64,000 bases of DNA, from NCBI GenBank assembly GCA_004565275.1, contig SDOX01000145.1:480215-544214 (forward strand), read 5' to 3'. Below are positions 22,335-42,600 of this stretch, in pieces. The stretch comes from Nannochloropsis salina CCMP1776. Its lineage: Eukaryota; Sar; Eustigmatophyceae; Eustigmatales; Monodopsidaceae. Under the pieces are notes generated by a model. That model was not told where the DNA came from. It did no database searches and saw only the letters and a list, made by a program, of their open reading frames with translations. The position numbers and the translations under genes are program-made. The first letter of the stretch is position 1. Each line of letters starts with the position of its first letter.

Positions 22335-22896
22335 GCAGTTTGAGGAGGTGCGAAAGGGCGAGGGGGGCACGCTCAGGACTTGTAGGTGCGCGGCCCGGGC
22401 CTGAGGGTGGGCGAGGCGCCTTAAGGGAAAGCGATGGATGCGCAGGACAATTTTGATTGCAAACGAACGCAAAAAAGACACGAGCCTCTCCTTCTTTTCG
22501 GGGAAGAAATCATTCCTTCGAGAGACGACGCAACGAGTGCTGTTGTTTACTTTTCTCACCCGCAGGGTCCCCCCATGCTCTCTTTCTCTTCCTTTCCCTC
22601 GCCTCAGGCCTTGGGCACGCCCGCGCCCCTCCTTCCCGCCATGGAAGACCGCCCGCCTCCGGGTCGCTTTTTCCACAAATCCACACCCATCAAGGACCTC
22701 AAGCTGTTCCAAACCCCATTTTCACCTCCTGTGAGGCTCCCTAGCACTGACGGGAAATCAGGAACCCCCTGCCTCCCTCCCTCCCNNNNNNNNNNNNNNN
22801 NNNNNNNNNNNNNNNNNNNNNNNNNNNNNNNNNNNNNNNNNNNNNNNNNNNNNNNNNNNNNNNNNNNNNNNNNNNNNNNNNNNNNTGGGCAAAGAG
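22335..22896. other. Spacer containing an assembly gap
   Basis: Spacer between the C2/U-box gene and the end of minC. Bases 22786-22885 are N (exactly 100, a typical scaffold placeholder), so the true distance is unknown and an exon could be hidden. No gene is supported in the visible part. Confidence 0.8.
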
Positions 22897-25134: not shown

Positions 25135-28100
25135 ATGGGAGCCAAAAGATCGTCGAGCGTCGTGCGTGAAACTGGAACCGGCATCCGGGGTGAATCTGCG
25201 CATCGGAAACGCCAGCGGGCGGCGCCCCCCCTGGGGTCGCATGATGCCACTGGGCTCGAGGAGGAAAGAATTCTGATTCCAGGGCTAGGCCGCCCAAGAG
25301 AAGGTCATGGCGAAAAAGAGGAGTGCGCGCCGGACCTGTTCGGCGACGACCTGGAGATTTTCGACATGGACTCCGACTTCGACCACGTGCTGTATGAGAA
25401 CGGAGGGCGGTCGCCGGACCAGAACCGGCAGCCGGCTTCCCGCCCAGTTGAGGCGGGCGACGCGGGCGACGGCCTCTGGGATATGCCCAGCCTGGGTGAT
25501 GGCGGGAACATCGATGCCACGTCTGGCATGGCCCTTTCGGTGCCAACCCCTCCACCATGCACGGCCCTCCCGAGCCCCGCGACGGCGTCGTCCTCCTCCC
25601 CTACACAGGCTCCCCTTCCCTCGCCTGCACACGCATCCGTCCCAACCCCGGCATTGCAATCGATGCAAGCTTCCTCCTCTCTCGTCCCATGCCCGGCGCC
25701 CGAAGCCGGTCCATGGGAGCCTCCTCGCGAGGAGGAGGGACGGGCTCCGCTTCCTCGTGGAGACGGGGAGGGAGAAAGTCGTTTCCCGTGCGGCCCAGGG
25801 CAGGAACAAGGGAGGGCCGTGGGGGGTGGGACTGGTGGCAGTGAGAGCAGCAGCCACACGTGCGCGAGCGGCGGCCAGAGAGGAGACAAGCTTCCTGGAG
25901 GTTGGGGAGGGATCGGTCGGGCGAAGAAACCGAGCAATGGTCGCGTCAGCACCCAGGACGTGAAAGCGCAGCTTCGGGGGGACCCGGGCGTGATCATGGA
26001 GCTTTATCAGGACGGGGTGCGCTTTGGCCTGGGGGGTATGGCCTGGTCCTCCGGGACAAGAGGGACAGCGCCCGGTCCTGGAAGCTCTTCGGCCCCCCCC
26101 CCCCGGGCGCTGGTACGGAGGGCAGGCGGAGAGGTGATGGGGCCCCTCCAGCCTTACTCCGCCCGCGTCCGGGACATGCTCCGATGCCTGGACCAGAGCG
26201 CGGTCTTGTCCCTGGAGATCCTTCGGACGTTGCCCGCGTCGCCACACATGCGTGGGAGAGACCGGGTGGTGATGGAGTGCCGCGACCGACGGCCGCGGTG
26301 TTTTTATCAGGGCCCGACCGAGGACGTTGGGGCCACCCGCACACCGGGCACAGATGTTCACGTGTCGAGGGCCTTGGTTCATCTCCCGGGCCCCGTCCTC
26401 GCCCAAGACCTGGAGCAGGCCCTCCCCTCCCTTGCTGTCCCATCCCTCGGCGCGCCGGTCCACACGACCCTGTCCGGGGGCGGCGGGAAGGGGAGGGGGC
26501 CGAACCCGGGAGGGGGCAAGAAGGGGACAGCAGGAGGCCCCGCACCCACCTTCACGGTGGCGGAGATGATGTCGCATGACCAGAGGGTGCAGGACGAGGC
26601 GATTCGGTTGGAACAAAGCATGCTCCAGGCAGCCTTCCCGTCCTTCCCTGGCACGGAGGCCCCCCCGGCGCCGGCTCCTTCCCTCCCCCTCGATCGACCC
26701 GCCCCACCCGTCCCTTACCGCCGCCAGCACTACCGGTTGCTGGCCCCTCCGACCTCCGTGTTGGATACCCGGATCGCCCAGCCCCCCCCCCGTGTCTTGT
26801 CGACGCGTGACGAAACCTGTGGCGGGTATGACGGAGGCTTTGGAGGAGCTGGACATGGACTGGGCGGACCTGCACGCCCTCTTCTCGGAGGAAGACCCGC
26901 GGCCCCCTTGTCTGCCCCCCCTGGGTGCCGCGTCCTCCCTCTCTTCCTGCGACGCCGATGCCGCCGAGAGGGCCCTCCATTCCTCCCTGTTGTCCCTGCC
27001 TGGGAACGCGTCCTCCCTGACCCTGGCGGGGAGACCGGAGGGGGGGGAGGTGCTGCACCCAGCGCTGCTAAAGCGGGAGATATCGGAGCCCATGAGGGGC
27101 CTGGCCGTGCCCGGGATGAGTCCAGGGGACGCGGTGGACGCACTGGCCTCCCCTGTTTCGTTCGAGAACATTCTCCCGGGTGGGAAGGCCCCAGGTCTAC
27201 CTACAGCCCACCCGTCCGTCAAGGCCCTCCACACGGCAAGCCCCTTGGCTCGGCGGGCGGGCGGGGAGGACGCGAGGCTGGCGGCGACGGCGGGCACGGG
27301 ACGGCTTCCAAGACCCTCTCCAAGGGGCGACAGGCGAGCTCCCTCTGCCCGTCCGCCGTCCATCGCGTTCGCTGCCATGTCGAAAGCGCAGGAGCGGTTC
27401 CGGCATGTCTCGGTCCAAGTCTTGGCGAACGCTCAAGAAACGGGGCAGCAAGCAGCCAGCCGCGCCCAGCACCAACAACGGCAGCCGCCTCAGCGCCGAA
27501 GCCTGGTGCCGACCCTGGCGAAGAAGGCTCTGTCTCTGGGACCGGGTATGAGCGTGGAGGAACTCGTCGGGAGGCAAGGCAGCGGAACGACCAAGGCTGG
27601 GGAGGAACGGGGAGAGATCCGTCCAACACAGGCTGCAGGCTTTGCCCCACCCCCTCCCTCGCATGTCGCACACACCATGCGTCATCGGGCCCACCCGGGC
27701 CATCCACACCTGCCGCCCTCACTCCGTCCCGCCGTAACGGCCGCCCTCCCGCCCGCCCCGACCCCTACGAGGGTGCCGTCGGCCCGCTCTACGCTTTCTT
27801 ACCCCTTGGCTTCGCATGCGCCCACTGCAACAGGGGTACACGCGGCCGGTGGAGAATTCGCCACGCTCTCTTCTGTTCCGGGAGGAAACCGAGCGCCGCA
27901 AGCACCCCCGGAGCACCAGCAGGAGACTGGACGGCAGCCCTTGCAGGCACCGCCAGGGGCTGTGTCCGAGCACGCAGGACTCGCATATGCCCGCAGTAGT
28001 TATGCGCTCCCTTGGAACCCGAATTCTATCACTGCAGGCGGTGGGAGGGCTCCGGAGACGCCGGTCTCCCCCCTCGAGACGCTCCCAGGGCAGATGCGCC

Positions 28101-28649
28101 CAGGGGGGATGCCGCCTGTGCATACGTCGGAGCTACCCAAGCCACAAAAGCAAGACCTCCAGTACCGTCCCGCGCCTCTTGTCAACTCGCACCCACAGCG
28201 GCAGCAGTATTGCTTGCCACAGCACCAGCAGCCGCTGTCGCCAGCCCCTTTCCAACGTCAAGATCATGCCCAGCAAGGCCAGCACCGCGACCCACTACCT
28301 CTCCTACAAGCACCGATCCCGCGATCCAATCGATTGGCCCCGCTCCAGCAGCTTCAGGCGGGGCAAGAGGTGATCCCAACCGAAGCCACACGTGGTCTGT
28401 CGCCATATTACAAGGCAGGATCATCGCGAAGCGCGCTGCCGCCGCATTCCCAGTCGTCTTTCCAGCAACAGCAGTCTCCACAGCATTTGACCGAGCAGTT
28501 CTTGACGGTACAGAGAGCAGCGGAAGGAAAGGGAGCTGTCTCTCCCTATGTCTTGGAGCAACTCAAACTCCAGTGGTTTCGGCAGCAGCAACAACAACAA
28601 CCACGACAACCACAGCCAGCACCACGACCGCTACCACACCAACAACCTC

Positions 28650-28696
<47 letters not shown>

Positions 28697-28956
28697 CCAC
28701 CACGGCCACAACAAAAACCACCACTACCGCCACAACAACAACGACAACAACAACCACCACTACCGCCACAACAACATCGACAACAACAAAACTTGCAATC
28801 ACACCAACAACATCGACAACAACAAAACTTGCAATCACACCAACAACATCGACAACAACAACACTTGCAATCACAAGAGCCACCACCACACCAACAACAA
28901 TATCATCAACCACAACATCAACAACGGCCACCACAACAACCACGACATCACCAAAC

Positions 28957-28998
<42 letters not shown>

Positions 28999-29062
28999 TT
29001 TGCAACCACAAAAAATGCAAAATCCTCCACAGCCGCCACAATTACATTTTCAATATCACTGA
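25135..29062 (+). CDS. SPT20-like SAGA subunit with poly-Gln tail, one clear frame break
   Basis: The ATG at 25135 has a good context (ccATGG). Frame one carries an SPT20-like domain: PGVIMELYQDGVRFG, then LQPYSARVRDMLRCLDQSA, EILRTLP, RVVMECRDRR (matching the EVRDYR signature), then LEQSMLQA and SLPLDRP, which parallel the second half of plant and animal SPT20. SPT20 holds the SAGA acetyltransferase complex together. After a 10-C run (26782-26791) the coherent frame changes by one base and continues with an acidic segment (ALEELDMDWADLHALF) and a long Gln/Pro-rich tail to TGA at 29062. The span is one base more than a multiple of three. A piece between 26040 and 26092 (YGLVLRDKRDS in a third frame) may also belong, bounded by G6 and C12 runs. 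The family call is from motifs only. Confidence 0.7.
28649..28999 (+). repeat. CAA microsatellites and 36-bp coding repeat
   Basis: Uninterrupted CAA tracts lie near 28649-28697 and 28960-28999. Between them, 28769-28876 holds three copies of a 36-bp unit (12 residues, QQHRQQQNLQSH). All are inside the glutamine-rich tail of the SPT20-like gene. Confidence 0.95.
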
Positions 29063-32072: not shown

Positions 32073-35000
32073 ATGGATCGTCAAAATAAAGCAATGGGTG
32101 GCAGCGGCCTCCTCAGTGGGAATATGAGCAGTGGTCCGGGTGCTAGCGGTACCAACAGCCCAAGGCCCTCTCAACAACAGCAGCAGCCTCCCCCTCCTCT
32201 GCACTCGCGCCCGCGGGACATGCCCGTGGGGGCACCCCCTGTGTATCAACGTGAGTATGGAATGTCTGCATCGAGAATGAAAGGATGCACTAGTACGATA
32301 AATCTCGTCGAAGAGCTTTTGGCACGCAGAGAAAATGCATGGCGGAAGAAAGGGAGGGCGTTGCCACGGTCTGCTTCGTCCATCTTGAATGCCGATGCAA
32401 CAAAATTTAAAGCATGCGATGAGCCTTTTAGATCATTTATTCTGAACCTTGCACCAATCCATCCTTATCCCACAGGCCCTTCGCTGACAGGCGCGGGCCT
32501 CTTCACATCCGCAGGGGGCGGGATGGCAAGCCTCTTTGCCAACCCAAACTCCTCTCTCCCCGCCGCGTCCAGCAACTTCCAGGGTTTATACTCTGGGGGC
32601 AACGCTCACCTTATGAACAACAACGCGAGCAAGCCCGGGCAGGATTGGCACCGTGGCCTCCCCCCTCCTTCCTACTCTCTCCCCTACAGTGCTCCGAGCC
32701 CCGCTTTCGCCGGTCGTCCCTCCATGGCCCCGTCCCACGCAGCATTGATGCAGAACGCTCTGGCCTATCTGGAGCTCGTGCAACGCACCTTTGCGCACCA
32801 GCCCGACATATACGCCTCCTTTCTCAGCGTGATGAGGGAGCACAAGGAAGGGCGCCGGGATACCCCCAACCTCTGCGTGCAGGTCTCGCGCTTGTTCCAA
32901 GGGCAGGACTCCCTCCTCCGGGGCTTTCAAGACTTTTTGAGCGGGATCCACGCCGTCGACCCGCCCCTCCCATCCCCAGCCCCATCGGCCCCGTCGTCCT
33001 TCCCGAACTCCATGGGCCACCCCTCAGGGTATCGGGGATGGAACGCACGCCCCTCCGCCCCGCCCTCCCACCCTCCCTTCCTGCCCGGAGGAAACGGGAC
33101 CCGGCCCCCCCTGCAGACCGGCGTGGCGGAAGGCGGAGGGGAGGCGAATAAGGACGTGAGCATGGAGGACGCGGTCCTGTACATGGACCGGGTCAAGTCC
33201 GCCTACGCCGACAAGCCCGAGGTAGGCCCCTCCCTCCCTCCCGCCCTCCCCCCCTGCATCCCTCCCTCCCTTCCGCCCTCCTCTCCTGCCTCCCTCTCTG
33301 CCCCCCCCCGTGCTCCTTGTCGGTCTCTTTGTTTGTCCTTCCAGTCCGACATCTGCCCAGAGTGCGTTCCCTTCTGATGCCTTCCTCCCTCCCTCCCTCC
33401 CTCCCTCCCTCCCTCCCTCCAGACCTACGCCCGCTTTCTGGAGATCATCAAGAGCTTCCAAGACGAGCTCCCCGACACGGCCCGGGTACTGGAGGCCGTG
33501 ACGCAGATCTTTCAGGGACGGGAGGACTTGATCCAAGGCTTCAATTGCTTTCTCCCGGCGGCGCACCGTCTTCCTCCCCCCAAGGGCCTCCCAGGCGCCC
33601 GGGGGGGGGGAGAGGGGGGCAGTTTGCAGGGCGGGAGAGGGGGCGGAGGGGAGGGAGAGGGGGAGGCCGGGCAGGCACAGATGCAGGGGGCGATCGACTT
33701 CACGGACCAGGTGCGTGCGACCTTCCAGAACCAACCTGGCGTCTATTTGGAGTTTTTGCGGGTGATGCGGGCCTTCCAGGGGGGGGAGATGGGCATCGGG
33801 GAGGTGATGGAGCGGGTGGGGAGAATGTTCCAAGACCATCCCTTTCTCCTGGACGGTTTCAACCGCTTCCTCCCCCCGCAATACCGGATGCCCGCGCCGC
33901 AGGGCAAGGCGCCTGCCCGGGCCGAGGGCTGGGAGGGCGGGGAGGAGGACGTGGGGGAGGCGGACGCCCTCGACTATATGGATAGGGTTCGCTCCACCTT
34001 TACCGCCCGGCCCGAGGTGTACGTGGCGTTTCTAGAGGTCATGCGGGGCTTTCAGGCGGGGACCCTCCGCACGGAGGGCGTGATGCAAGAGGTGGGGAGG
34101 TTGTTTGCAGGCGAGGAGGCCCTGCTGCGTGGCTTCAACGCCTTCCTCCCCCATGGCTACCGAATGCCCTCCGTGCCGCCCTCCGCCCCGCCCTTGCAAC
34201 GGCCCTCCCCGCCTGGCGTGCAGGGAAGGGCCGTGTCGGGAGGAGGGGAAGAGAGCGGAGGAGGAGGAGGGGAGGGGGAGCGGGACGTGGAGTTTGCGGC
34301 GAATTTCATCGAGAACGTTCGAAACCGTTTCGCGGCAGATCCCGCCCGGTACCAGACCTTCCTGGAGGTGCTGCAGCGCCACGAGGAGGAAGGGAAGGAG
34401 GGCGGGCTGTCGGAGACGGAGCAGCTGGCCAAGACGGTCTCGGAGCTCTTCCGGGGCCACGAGGATCTCTTGAAAGACTTCGCACATTTTTTGCCGGGCC
34501 CAGTTCGGGCAGCCTTGGGGCTGATGGGGCCGGAGGAGGACGGGAAGGTTACGGAAGGGGAGGGGGGGGACGGCGAGGGGGAGGGCAAGAAGCCGGCGGA
34601 GGAGGAGGAAAAAGGCGGGGAGGAGGAGATGGGGATGGCCGACGCCTTCAAATTCCTCCAGCGGGTGCGTGAGAAGATAGGGGCGGAGAATGAGGAGAAG
34701 TACAACGAGTTCTTGGACGTGCTCCGGGGCTACGAGGAGAAGGAGATCGTCCCGGCGGAGGCGACGCGGCGGGTGGAGGCGTTACTGGGCGGGGACACGG
34801 AGCTGTGGGAGGAATTTAAGGGATTTCTCCCGGACGTGGGGAGGCGCGAGGAGGAGGACGAGGACGAGGACGAGGAGGAGGAGGACGAGGGGGAGGAGGA
34901 GGAGGAGGAGGAGGAGGGAAGGGAGGAGGTGGAGTCGTTGCTGGTGAAGGTGCGTGCTTTCTTCGCAAAACGTCCCACGGAAGGGACGCGGCTGGTGGAA

Positions 35001-36308
35001 GCGATGGAGGGGGTGATGAATATGGAAGGGGGCCGGGGAGGTTCAGGGTCGGACCGAAAGAAGAAATGGGAGGAGACGAAAGAGAGTGTCTGGCAAGTGG
35101 CGAGGGAGGTGCTGAAGGAGGAGGGGGAGGAAGGTGGGTTACGGAAGGAGTTGGAGGAATGGATGGCGGGGAAGGAGGGGGAGAAAAGGAAGGAGGTAGG
35201 GTCGGGGGACCAAGCGGGTGGTGTGGTGGAGGGAGCGGCCCGAGCCGGAGGAGGGGAAAGAGCAGATGCCAGGGGGAAGGAAGGGGGGATGGATGTTGAA
35301 ACAGGAGGGCAGGCGGGAGGGGAAGGAGGGAGGGGGACAGGAAGGGGAGGAAGAGAGGGGAAGGAGGAAGAGGAGGTTGGGAGGGGCGAGGGAGGAGCAG
35401 AGAAAGGGACTGAGAAAGAAAATTCCCCGAGGGGGAAGAAGCGGAAAGCAGGAGAGGGCGAAGAGGGGGAGGGGGAGGGGGAGGGGGAGGAGGAAGAGGA
35501 AGGGGAGGAAGAGGAGCTTGTGATCATGGACGAGGACATGACGGACGACGAGGAAGGGAATGAGGAGGGGGGAGAGAAGAACGCCGGGGAGGGAGCGGAG
35601 AAGGAGCAGGAGGGAAAAGAGGGAGAGGGAGGGGGAGGGAAGGGCGCGGAGGAGGACGGGGGAGAAGGCGATCCGGGAATAGGGCCCAAAGAAAGTCGCA
35701 AGAAAGAGGCTTCGGGAGGCGAGGCATCAGGGGACGAGGTCGATCCGAAGGGGAAAGGGAAAAGGGAGGTAGGAGAAGGGCGGGACGGAGGGCGGGAAGG
35801 AGGGTCAGAGGAGACGGGTGAGGGGGAGACTTCCGGGGCGGTGGGGACAGGGAAAGTACCCGCTCTGGGAAAGGAAGGAGGGAGGGAAGGAGGAGGTGAA
35901 GAGGGCGGCGAGCCCGGTGGGGGCCATGAAGGAAGTAGTCCCGGAGCCGGGAAGCCTTGCCTGTCCACGTCCACTCCACACTCTTCTCCTCCCTCGGTCA
36001 GTTCCTCCTCGGGCCCTCGGAGACGGAGTTTGGCGGAGGTGATGGGGAAGGAAGGGGCGGTGGAGGTGATGGGACAGGAAGGGGCGGTGGAGGTGATGGG
36101 AAAGGAAGAGGCGGGGCCAGCGGACGGGGAGGGCCGAAGCAGCAACCACACGGACCTCCGACAGGACAAGGCCTCGAGTCCCGTGCCAGGCAACCTCCTG
36201 AAGGGAGGAGGGAGCGACGAGGGCGGGAAGGAGGGCGGGAGGGAGGGCGGACAGGAGGGCGGGAAGGAAGGCCTGTCTAGGGCGGACTCAAGCCCATCGG
36301 GCTTGTAG
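32073..36308 (+). CDS. SIN3-like protein with six PAH repeats and acidic tail, no HDAC-interaction domain
   Basis: Exons 32073-32250, 32476-33221 and 33423-36308 (1269 aa). The second intron is filled with CCCT units and splits the second repeat; joining it restores SAYADKPE/TYARFLEIIKSF. Six paired-amphipathic-helix units follow each other, each with the core (F/Y)-x2-V-x3-F...Y-x2-FL-x-(V/I)-(M/I/L)...LF-x-G-x2-x-LL-x-(G/D)-F-x2-FLP. Units 3 and 4 are the most alike (GFNRFLPPQYRMP and GFNAFLPHGYRMP). A degenerate seventh (LVKVRAFFAKRP) follows. PAH domains bind transcription-factor helices in SIN3 co-repressors. The remaining ~500 residues are Glu/Gly/Lys low complexity with a nine-residue VMGKEGAVE repeat. 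The conserved SIN3 domain that docks histone deacetylase is absent. A Gln/Pro N-terminus precedes the first repeat. Confidence 0.88.
33222..33422 (+). repeat. Intron made of CCCT units
   Basis: Intron 2 of the PAH-repeat gene. It has CCCT-rich tracts just after the GTAGG donor and directly before the AG acceptor. The antisense strand is GGGA-repeat and could fold as a G-quadruplex. Confidence 0.85.
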
Positions 36309-36628: not shown

Positions 36629-38736
36629 TCATTTCTTTTCCGTACCCCCCCCCTTTTGTGGCCGCCTTTCTTTCCTCCTCTTCGCCTTCTCGACATCCCA
36701 CGCCGTCCGCGTCGAAATCCTTCCCCTCACCCGCCCTCCCTCCCTCCCTCCCTCCCTCCCCTTCTTCTTCCCCCCTTTCTTCAACCCCGCCATCCACGCA
36801 GGGACCTGCCCCCCACTCAGCTTGATCACGTTCGCGATCGCCCGGAGCGATCCTCCCTCCTCCATGTCCCTCTCAGTCCAAAAGGTCACGGCCCTCCCCG
36901 CCCTCCCCGCCCTCCCCGTCCGCCCCACCCGATGGACGTAGGTGACGCAAGAGGGGGGAAGGTCGTAATTGACCACCACGTTCACCGCCCGAAGGTCCAG
37001 GCCCCGTGCACACAGGTCCGTGCACAGCAACACCCACACGGCCCCAGCCCTGACCTTCTCCAGGAGCGCCGCCCGTTGCTCCGAGCTTCTGCCCGCGTGC
37101 ATCACGTCCACGCGGAGGTGATCGTAGCAGAGTTCGTGGTAGAGCTCCCGGGCCCGCTCCTTGCTCTCCAAGAACACCAAGATGGGGGGAAGGACTCCCT
37201 GCTTCAACAGCTGTCGGAGGGCCAAGAGCTTCCCCTCCTCCCGCCCAACAAACACCAATTCTTGCGTCACGGATTCGGGGACGGCGGCCGCGTGCGTGTA
37301 GTTGGAACGGTTGGATGCCAGACCGACCGACACGGAGACGGGATCTCGCAGCACACTGCTCGCCAAGTCATGGATCAGCGGGGGGAGCGTGGCGGAGAAG
37401 AGGGCGCGCTGTACCTCCGGGTATGTACAGGCGGCCAAGATCTCGTCCACCTGCCCGAGGAAACTTTTGTCGGGTTCCAAGGATTCGCCCGCCGTATTTT
37501 TCTTCCCTTCTCGCCCCAATTCAAACAGCTTGTCCGCTTCGTCCAAAATGACAGCCCGGACCCGCCTCAAGTCCACCTTTCCCTCCCGCAGGGCCTGGAG
37601 CAGACGCATCGGCGTCGCGACCAGGAGATCATACCCGGAGAATACCCCTTGACCTGCCCCATCCTTGGTCGCCGCCAGCGCCTTGGACACCACCGCGACT
37701 TTAAAGGCCCTTCCAGCCGCCAACCGTTGCACTTCCCCACAAATTTGCGAGGCGAGTTCCCGGGTGGGGGCCAGGAGGAGGGCTCGTGGGCCGTTTCGCA
37801 GGAGCTTGGCCTCGGACTTTTCGAGACGTAGGAGGGTGGGGAGGACGAAGGCGGCCGTTTTCCCCGACCCCGTGGGGGCGGTGGCCAGGAGGTCGCGGCC
37901 CATGGCCAGGACGGGCAGTGCTTGCATCTGTATGGGCGTGGGCTCTTTCCACTGGGAGGACTCGATGTTCCTCAGCAACGTCCGCTTGAGAGAGGCGTCG
38001 GGGCAAGGGAGGAGGGAGAAGGAAGGAAGGCAGTCCGGCACGTTCTCCCCCCGGGCTTTGATCCGCAACCGTCGACGGAAGGCCCGCATCTCGTCCTCCT
38101 CGTGCTGGCGTCGAGTCCCATTTAAAACCAGGGTCGGGGCGGAACCAGAAATGGTCACGGAGGAAGAGGAGGAGGAGGAGGAGGAGGAGGACGAGGAGGA
38201 GGCATCACTGTCCTCGCCCGTATCCTCCTTCCATTGTACGCCCTTCTTTTTCTTGCGGAAAAGGGAGGGAGTCTGTGACGTGGCGCCCGGGTCGTCTGGA
38301 CAAGGCCTCCCTTCTTGCTTATCCCGCTTCCGCCGCCCAGTCCCCATCCCAGCATCCTTGTCGCGTGCACACCCGTGCCCTCCATCTACATGCCCTTTCT
38401 TTGAACCGTGCAAGCGAAGCTCGTCGTCAGTCGCTTCCTTCTCCTCGCCTCTACCCTCCTCTTTCTCCCTGCCTTTTCCCCCATCCTCCCGCCCCCCCCC
38501 CGTGGTCTTTTTTTCTTTTGTTCGTCCGGCAACGCCGCAGACCGGAAGAAATCCAATGCTGCGGACGGAGACGATGTTATCGTGTTCGTGGGTGGACCGC
38601 AGGTTGACAGGAATGGTGATGACAGGGAAAGGCTTGTACGTGTCCCATGATGCTTGTTGGCGGCAGCACTAGCACCGGATTCAGACGTCGTCTTAAACTT
38701 TGTCCCCGCCCGAAGGGCTCTAAATAAATCCTCCAT
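36629..38736 (-). CDS. DEAD-box RNA helicase DDX52/ROK1, frame broken at a C10 run
   Basis: ROK1/DDX52 helicases act in 40S ribosome assembly in the nucleolus. The ATG at 38736 gives MEDLFRALRAGTKF, the family N-terminus, followed by ALDFFRSAAL. The helicase core is in another frame: Q motif (WKEPTPIQMQALPVL), Walker A (APTGSGKT), Ia (PTRELASQI), DEAD (VILDEADKLFE), SAT (FSATLP), and the C-terminal ILVFLESKERA, CTDLCARGLDL and HRVGRTGRAGRAG. The switch falls at ten C (38492-38501), after which the core frame reads through an acidic linker (EEKEATDDELRLHGSKKG) without a stop. I therefore treat the two open frames as one gene with a one-base assembly error; the span is 2108 bases. A poly-Ser run from a GGA microsatellite precedes the core. 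The tail is basic. Confidence 0.88.
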
Positions 38737-39637
38737 CAAGCAAAGCTCTATGAGAATTGTATCAAATTATTAGGTGAGATTAAGTAAAGGTACCACCATG
38801 CCACATTGATTATCGATCCCGATGGAACACAGCAGCCAGGATACTAAAATATGATCAAGTAAGTCTCTCTGATAAGTGCCACAACGGACACAACAGAGGC
38901 CTCTGGACCTGTGGATAACCAATAAACAAGCGAGACAGCAAGGCACAATGCCGGATGGTGACTTTCTGGATCAGTGAACATTCCAATTGCGTGCAAATCG
39001 GCTTGTCATGACCTTTCCCGGAACATCAGTGGCCTCCACCCACTCCATTTCTGAAGCTTGTCAACATAATTTTCATAGGAAGTTGCGGTATTTCCATCCA
39101 TGGACACGCGCCACGACCAAATAGTGTCAGTTGGACCCTCTTGCCCCTTCAGTCACACCGGGGTGTGGTTTAGGATGGTGTAACCATTATTTTGTCACGA
39201 AAGACACACGTCTCAAGGGGCTGGCGTCGCCGCTTCGCCGTATTTAACAGAGCAGACTTGTACACTCACGCCTTCAAGCACACTGCGAACTTGCAAGGAA
39301 ACAAGCTTTGTCCGGGGCGTCGACCATCTCTGTACTCATCTTTTTCTCCCTACGCTCCCAGTACACTCGTTCACAGGCTTACGAAGTGAGGGAAACGAAA
39401 TCAAAAATTGAGGCTTTAAATTATTCTGCCACACCAGCATCACCCCAAGGGCACCTCTCCCTTGCCCCTCTGGGGACCCTCTGAAAGAACCAATTTAGCT
39501 TCTGCTATTGAATTTGGCGTAAAATATACCATACCGACGCGGCTCTTCAGGCACGCGGACGTTTGACCAGGCCTGGCGGGTGCAACACACGCTCTAGGCA
39601 CACGGTTGCCGCCCGTTGCGCAGCGGCAACAGAGACG
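38737..39637. other. Divergent spacer, DDX52 / kinase
   Basis: No gene is supported. Likely 5' regions of both neighbours. Confidence 0.5.
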
Positions 39638-42600
39638 ATGTTGCAATTTTGCGCAGCGCGGCCTGACTCGGCCAGGACAGTCTCCATGGTCCGAGCGATG
39701 GGGACAAGCACCATACGGTCAAGGCTCGCGACCAGAAGAGGCACCTTTATCTCACGTCTGGCCGCATCAAGCGGCATGAGGAACACCTCAGACCCTGCCC
39801 GCCGTACCCGATTCTTCAGCAACGAGAGCAGAGTCCTTGGACGCCAAGGCCTTTGCAGTGTCCAAGACAAGAAGGGTAGCATCCTGACCCCAGGAAGAAT
39901 AAGACGTCGGGCGTGGCAATCACCTGCAGCTCACGTTACCCCGGCCAGCGCCTCAAGCTCTGCGTGCTTTCTCTTATCCGAAACCCTCCCTCCGTCCATC
40001 CTCGCCACTCTCTCCCCCTCCTCCTCCTCCTCCTCCTCCTCCTCCTCCTCCTCCTCCTCCTCCTCCTCCTCCTTCTGGGCCACACCTTCCTTCTCCAGCC
40101 TGGCGGTCCTCCTCCTGGGGCTAGGCTGGACGGGGTGCCTGCTGCAAGCTCCGCCCGGGGAATGTCGCGCCCTTCGGAACATCCACGAGTTCTACAAGAT
40201 CGTCGAGAAGCCCATTGGCGCCGGCGGCTTTGGGGTCGTGTGCGTGGGCTCGCACCGGGAGACGGGGGAGGTGGTGGCGATCAAACAGCTGCCCAAGAAG
40301 GCGATCCGGGAGCTTAAGGTGATGACGGAGGTGGACATCCTCCGGCTGGCGGGCGAGCACCGGAACATCATCGGCTTCAGAGACCTCTTCCAGGACGAGG
40401 AGAACTGGTACATCGTGATGGAGATGGCGGAGGGGGGCGAGCTTTTCGACCGGCTGGTGGAACGGGGCGCCTACTCGGAGGCCCAGGCAAGTGAGATCAT
40501 GCGGGAGATCGTCGACGCGGTCTCCTACCTGCACCAGCAGGGCATCGTCCACTGCGACTTGAAGCCCGAGAACCTCTTGCTCGCCACCAAGGCCAGCGAC
40601 ACCAGCAACATGCGCCTGGTCGACTTTGGCTCCGCGTTTCGGGCGGATTCGGGGAAACTCGTGTCCAAAAAAGGCACAGGGACCATCGCCTACTCCGCGC
40701 CCGAGGTCATCTCGGGGCGCCCTTGTGGCTACAAAGCGGACGTGTGGGCCCTTGGTGTCTTGATGTACATCCTCCTCTCCGGTACGTCCCCCTCCCTCCC
40801 TCCCTCCCTCCCTTCCTTCCTCTCTCTTCCCTACGCTCCCTTTCCAAGGGCGCGCGGGTGTCCCGCATAAAGCCTCCCCGCCTGCGCGAGGCTCACGTAT
40901 CCACTCCTGCTTTTTGCATCGCTCCACCCCTAACGCGTGGCCCTCCCTCCCTCCCTCCCTCCCGCCCTCCCTCCCCTCCTCCCTTCCTCCCCCCCTCCCT
41001 CCCTTTCTCTTCCTCCCTCAGGCTACCACCCTTTTGACCCCTTGAACGACGCCAACGACGACCAGATCGGGGCGCGCATCGTCAAGGAGAAAGAGAAATA
41101 CGTCTCGTTCGAGCAGCCCGTCTGGGAACGGATCTCCCCCCAGGCCAAAATGCTGGTGAAACGCTTGCTCTCCTCGGACGCGCAGACACGACCCACTGCC
41201 CAGGTAGGTTGAGGGCGAGGGGGAGGAAGGGGTTGGGGGCGAGGGGGAGGAAGGGGTTGGGGGCGGGGGCAGGGGGTAGGAGGGAAAAGTGGGAAAGTCT
41301 GGGAGGCTATCGGGGAAGACGGAACGTGAGGGAGGAAGCGGGATGGCGGTGTGTCGGTCGATAAACCTACGGAGGGTACATCCGGGTATCGTCTTCGGGT
41401 CATGGCCCGCGGATGCCTGTAACCCCAAGGCGTCGGCGGTGGGGGGGAGTCTAGAGGTGGGGTGTTAAGGTAGGGGGGGGCGTATGAGGGAAAGAAGATC
41501 TAGCGCGCGAGAGTCTGGCGTCGCCAAACACGACAAAGACGCAGGGATGGGTCCTGGGGAACCAACCCTCTCTCCCTCCCTCCCTCCCTCCCTCCCTCCC
41601 TCCCTCCCTCCCTCCCTCAGGAACTTCTCCATGACCCCTGGATCGCCGGAGGCACCGAGCTGTCCCGCGAACCGCTAGAGGAGAGTGTGGAGAATCTGCG
41701 GTGCGTCCGTCTTCCTCCCTCTTTCCCGGCCCTTCCCCCTGCCTCTATCCCTTCCTCCTTTCCCTCCGCTTCGTCGCACTCACCCTCCCCTCCCCTCCCT
41801 CCCTCTTTCCCTCCCTCCCTCCTTCCACACCTCAGGAAATTCCACCGCGGCCGCCGTCGCCTCAAGGCTTTGATGCTGGTGGTGATGGCCGGCTTTGCCA
41901 ATGAGCCCGCCAGGGACGCGCCCCTGGTCTCTCAAGAGGAGGGAGGAAGGGAAGGAGGGAGGGAAGGAGGGAGGGAGGGGGGGAAGGAGGAAGGGGGTCA
42001 CAAGCGAGCATGGGCCCAGTCGTGGTCGAGCAAGATGTCCACCACATTGCGGTTGAAAGGGGAAGGGAGGGAGGGGGGGAGGGAGGGGGGGAGGGAGGGC
42101 GGGAGGGAGGGCGAGGAAGGGGGGCGTCGGCCTGCGGACCGAGACATGCCCTTGGAGGCCGGCGTCCTGTCCTCGTCCCCCTCCTCCTCCCCGTCCTCCC
42201 CCCTTCCTCCGCCCCTTCCTCCGCCCCTTCCTCCTCTCGCCTCCCCCGTGGCACAGTCACCGCTGACGCTCTGGGCTCGAGACGGGCGGCGGTCCGGGTA
42301 CTGGATCCAGAGAATAAAGGCTTCGTGACCGAGCAAGACTTGGCTCGCGTCCTGGCTGTCCTGGGGGAGGACCTGAGCGAGAAGGTGGCCTTCCTTTTCC
42401 CTCCCTCCCTCCCTCCCTTTCCCTCCCTCCCTCCCTCCCTCCCTCCCTTTCCCTCCCTCCCTCCCTCCCTTCCTCTTTTCCTCCCCTCCTCCCTCCCTCC
42501 CTATCCTCCCTCCCTCTCGGGGGCTTCCTTCCTCCTTCCTCCTCCTTGTCATTCGCATCGCGCTTGGCATGTTCCCCTTCCTGTCCCCCTCATCTCCCAC

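Follow-up and report, generated by a model that had tools for sequence, protein, structure and literature searches.

SIN3 co-repressors, among them yeast SIN3, fission-yeast pst1-3, animal Sin3A and Sin3B and the plant SNLs, carry partner-binding PAH domains and an HDAC dock on one chain, and ZNF598 combines a PAH domain with a RING domain and zinc fingers. The PAH domain is described as a four-helix bundle whose hydrophobic cleft takes one SID helix, with interface residues setting the specificity (PMC6168491). Many transcription factors are reported to be bound by PAH1 and PAH2, and core HDAC-complex components by PAH3 together with the HDAC-interaction domain (HID); the PAH that binds SAP30 in animals is PAH3 (PMC7948954). 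A form without the HID has been described in mouse as a short splice isoform, SIN3B(293), which is reported to carry PAH1 and PAH2 only and not to interact with HDAC, and yet to be capable of repressing basal transcription (PMC5902990, PMC4914931). The nuclear protein GON4L/Udu has two PAH-like repeats and a SANT domain, and mouse GON4L is reported to associate with YY1, Sin3a and Hdac1 (PMC7449961).

Here we describe a predicted gene of Nannochloropsis salina CCMP1776 that shares the PAH fold with the SIN3 proteins and whose array may end, at its C-terminal side, in a class-like PAH1-PAH2-PAH3 series, but that differs from them in having six PAHs, four of which are PAH1-like, and in that no HID or Sin3a_C was found. 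In a Pfam profile search of its exon frames neither the HID (PF08295), nor Sin3a_C (PF16879), nor the SANT family was matched, PAH and PAH_ZNF598 (PF23202) being the sole families above cut-off; the absence of a SIN3 HDAC-docking domain, as claimed in an earlier sequence-only reading of this DNA, is thus borne out for these frames. By its anatomy the gene would resemble SIN3B(293) in offering PAH domains without an HID, but it is a separate gene with six PAHs rather than a splice form described with two. It would likewise resemble GON4L as a PAH-bearing co-regulator distinct from SIN3, but differs from the reported GON4L architecture in PAH number and in the missing SANT match. The component parts, and the idea of an HID-less PAH protein, are already known, whereas a separate six-PAH gene with PAH1-like copies at the front was not met in the open-licence papers searched. 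Such a dock-less gene would offer a natural experiment on how a PAH array acts when HDAC is absent, and on whether repetition of the PAH1 pocket confers avidity for SID helices; studies of PAH specificity would also profit from a protein that combines PAH1-like and PAH2-like units.

The gene lies in a stretch of 64,000 nucleotides (C29:480215-544214; "the window") of a genome that was searched as 26.5 Mb in 103 contigs, and its predicted features are collected in Table 1. The putative start codon opens a first frame that runs into an in-frame stop at 33375-33377, and a second frame continues to the stop at 36306-36308. Excising intron 2 unites both halves of unit 2 and leaves the frame open to the end of the gene, with 961 open codons after this intron. 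Intron 1 is in frame and has a lower GC content, and it is therefore possibly retained, giving two or three exons; with both introns removed the predicted product has 1,269 residues. GC content in the six PAH units is 0.80-1.0 at codon position 3 vs. 0.29-0.42 at position 2, as expected for coding sequence. The open frames are rich in simple repeats of the PPSLPPSL- and REGG-type. A DEAD-box helicase frame (36629-38413) follows downstream on the opposite strand, i.e. in convergent orientation, and a protein kinase frame (39563-40870, plus strand; Pkinase E 1.3e-57), preceded by a Ser homopolymer stretch, lies beyond it. Upstream, a long Gln-rich open frame at 26576-29062 (plus strand) has no Pfam match with an E value of 0.01 or lower. 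The only N run in the window is one of 100 N at 22786-22885, probably an assembly gap.

Table 1 Predicted features of the PAH gene (positions in the window).
Feature	Position	Strand	Basis
Whole modelled gene, ATG to stop (putative start codon and exons)	32073..36308	+	predicted from sequence
Likely intron 1, 225 nt, GTGAGT...CCACAG, in frame, GC 0.46	32251..32475	+	predicted from sequence
PAH unit 1, PAH1-like	32733..32957	+	profile match
PAH unit 2, first part, exon 2	33150..33221	+	profile
Intron 2, 201 nt, GTAGGC...CTCCAG, interrupts unit 2	33222..33422	+	stop in first frame; joined frame open
PAH unit 2, second part, exon 3, PAH1-like	33423..33572	+	profile match
PAH unit 3, PAH1-like by profile, diagnostic columns mixed	33669..33890	+	profile match
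PAH unit 4, PAH1-like	33945..34166	+	profile match and structure model
PAH unit 5, PAH2-like	34275..34511	+	profile match
PAH unit 6, mixed class, sole high PAH3 score, also passes PAH_ZNF598	34623..34847	+	profile match
Claimed seventh unit, predicted helical bundle, unsupported as PAH	34917..35180	+	profile and model
Acidic Gly/Glu-rich tail with Lys/Arg clusters, e.g. KKRK	35181..36305	+	read from predicted protein

A six-frame search of the genome with the Pfam PAH profile (PF02671; cut-off 21.3 bits) gave nine matches, all above cut-off: six in this gene, two on contig C37 and one on C71. The six units that had been proposed from the letters alone therefore all pass, with scores of 38.1-50.4 bits. 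When 590 residues of exon 3 were searched against PDB sequences, 18 of the 21 distinct sequences found at E up to 1 were SIN3, the other three being unrelated to SIN3 and having E values of 0.29 or worse; units 4-5 were collinear with PAH1-PAH2 of human SIN3B, in a single stretch and in the same order. Unit 4, the one unit of the six that was modelled, gave a pLDDT of 84.8 with an alignment of four sibling units, and the best match to the model is SIN3B PAH1 bound to NRSF/REST (2czy; TM 0.85). In this model, unit 4 has the four-helix PAH fold. The match on C71 (L013:4441-4908, minus strand) is half a PAH, scoring 28.6 bits, with the second half of SIN3 PAH1 as its best PDB matches.

Two details of the sequence-only reading did not survive. 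A degenerate seventh unit was absent among the Pfam PAH matches and scored just 0.4 or 0.9 bits with PAH profiles, and out of 1000 shuffled sequences 12 and 13 did as well. Single-sequence AlphaFold predicts four helices here (pLDDT 80.7), for which Foldseek returned nothing better than E 1.8 and VIA-align placed SIN3 PAH2 at rank 43 of 50; a seventh PAH is thus not supported. Units 3 and 4, thought to be recently duplicated, are indeed mutually nearest, but with an identity of only 47-52% they are not the product of a recent duplication.

An important question is which class of SIN3 PAH each unit resembles. Class profiles were made for SIN3 PAH1 (five rows), PAH2 (five) and PAH3 (three) from yeast, fission yeast, human and this genome, and in a leave-one-out control all 13 reference domains were assigned to the right class. 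With the full set, the PAH1/PAH2/PAH3 scores in bits were 64/54/7 for unit 1, 78/70/19 for unit 2, 65/59/16 for unit 3, 82/53/10 for unit 4, 39/62/7 for unit 5 and 38/40/33 for unit 6, the PAH3 profile thus exceeding 20 bits in unit 6 alone (33 vs. 7-19 elsewhere). Two smaller reference sets leave units 1-4 as PAH1 and unit 5 as PAH2; unit 6 scores 28/19/26 with yeast and human rows only, and shows a three-way tie at 33 once fission-yeast pst1 is added to these. In the cleft of Sin3 PAH2, helix 2 carries Leu332, for which PAH1 is reported to have Met, and exchanging this Leu for Met is reported to have cut Mad1 affinity 7-fold (PMC7948954). The helix-2 column that is Met in all five PAH1 and Leu in all five PAH2 references would be this very position, and it reads M, I, M, M, L, L in units 1-6. 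Over eight diagnostic columns, the counts of PAH1-type to PAH2-type residues are 6:1, 4:1, 3:4, 5:2, 1:2 and 1:3 for units 1 to 6. The predicted classes of units 1, 2 and 4 are firm, the PAH2-like assignment of unit 5 rests on the profile, and those of units 3 and 6 are soft. Since the profiles make unit 4 PAH1-like, unit 5 PAH2-like and unit 6 mixed with the sole high PAH3 score, the last three units would stand in SIN3's order, preceded by what appear to be additional PAH1-like copies. In a tree of 18 domains and 74 columns no branch is starred, the six units do not form one clade and units 1, 3 and 4 group with no more than 81/84, so that phylogeny shows neither that the units come from SIN3 nor in which order they were duplicated.

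Does the genome contain a SIN3 besides this gene? A separate SIN3, whose existence elsewhere the sequence-only reading had raised, was found on C37, where exon pieces on the minus strand encode a conventional PAH1 and PAH2 and where the genome's one Sin3a_C match, an exon with no PDB match, lies ~10 kb further along. This gene is interrupted by 1,922 consecutive N (L011:3430-5351), and directly past this N run a near-copy of the Sin3a_C exon surroundings is visible by eye. The PAH3 and HID of the C37 SIN3 are expected in or near the N run, which may cover the HID and so explain why PF08295 was found nowhere in a genome-wide six-frame search, one that had no positive control and that gave no match in control genomes either. 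The same search, and the convergent DEAD-box gene that follows, give no sign of a transcript spliced to a downstream HID. Near-copies of Sin3a_C-type exon surroundings and of other frames, kilobases apart, were also seen by eye at L010:4995-5552 and L011:2890-3195 (C37, minus strand), and local duplication beside the N run may have disturbed assembly. The genome has one SAP30 Sin3-binding match, on C48 (47.3 bits), and 18 HDAC-family matches including exon pieces, 15 of them above cut-off; a search for Sds3, without positive control, gave no match. With a separate SIN3, SAP30 and HDAC genes present, the PAH gene seems to supplement SIN3 rather than to replace it.

Taken together, the gene probably, if by no means securely, encodes a SIN3-derived paralogue that has kept the PAH1-PAH2-PAH3 series and, in its front part, expanded the PAH1-type pocket to a total of four PAH1-like copies, without HID and Sin3a_C. 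Having four clefts of PAH1-like and one of PAH2-like type but no HID, the product should bind SID factors multivalently without direct HDAC docking. The protein would be nuclear, which the Lys/Arg clusters of its tail would suit; each pocket would clasp a single amphipathic helix, the SID of a transcription factor, and several pockets on one chain would make binding multivalent. SID-bearing factors might in this way be held without direct delivery to HDAC, and without gene silencing by the protein itself, tuning the activity of the C37 SIN3 or competing with it. The pair would be somewhat comparable to full SIN3B and its HID-less isoform SIN3B(293), except that the HID-less partner has its own gene here. 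A more specific version is possible, and we put it forward tentatively: the gene would be dedicated to a SIN3 paralogue, PAH1-amplified and HDAC-uncoupled, in which the array has been parted from the enzyme dock, PAH1 has been multiplied for avidity and the PAH3-like end could hand partners to SAP30, the whole serving a eukaryote of small genome as a tunable sink or switch for SID factors.

The sequence-only reading had likewise seen a scaffold or competitor that does not itself recruit HDAC. The scaffold or competitor remains the best reading, and no HID was found in the gene, but the inability to recruit HDAC is not secured, because unit 6 has the sole substantial PAH3 score, PAH3 binds SAP30 and a SAP30-family match is present. 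The product might thus be an adapter with access to HDAC after all: unit 6 would act as a PAH3 and bind SAP30, which would connect the array, together with the factors on it, to the HDAC complex with no need of an HID. The affinity reported for Sin3a PAH3 and SAP30 (Kd 9 nM; PMC7948954) would favour this, as would the SAP30 match on C48, but unit 6 scores at least as well with the PAH1 and PAH2 profiles as with PAH3, and it passes the ZNF598 PAH profile as well, so that we regard such an adapter as unlikely.

A SIN3-derived paralogue also has to be weighed against an independent multi-PAH protein without SIN3 descent, whose units would have been gathered and amplified from some other PAH gene and whose role would be unconnected with SIN3, e.g. 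that of an acidic-tailed co-activator. The tree, which places the units in no one clade with any SIN3 class, is consistent with this, as are the further PAH gene on C71, the acidic tail and the fact that, by eye, no intron positions are common to the PAH gene and the PAHs of the C37 SIN3. Against it, the class-like order of units 4-5-6 parallels PAH1-PAH2-PAH3 and units 4-5 are collinear with SIN3B, which makes an independent origin rather improbable. That the gene is a SIN3 fragment, broken or misassembled, with its HID missing through assembly or decay, could be imagined in an assembly with N runs, one of them within the C37 SIN3; this is very improbable given that 32073-36308 contains no N, that the frame stays open after intron 2 with a coding-type codon bias in the units, and that a conventional SIN3 PAH1 and PAH2 are located elsewhere.

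Least credible of all is a ZNF598-related translation quality-control protein seen via its PAH, for although unit 6 matches PAH_ZNF598 with 35.9 bits (cut-off 25), no other ZNF598 part, nor any other family beyond PAH, is above cut-off in the exon frames, and the single PAH_ZNF598 match (42 bits) of the six-frame genome search is at a different locus. This match lies in a long frame on C35 (C35:166005-166223; L023), which is perhaps the genome's ZNF598 relative.
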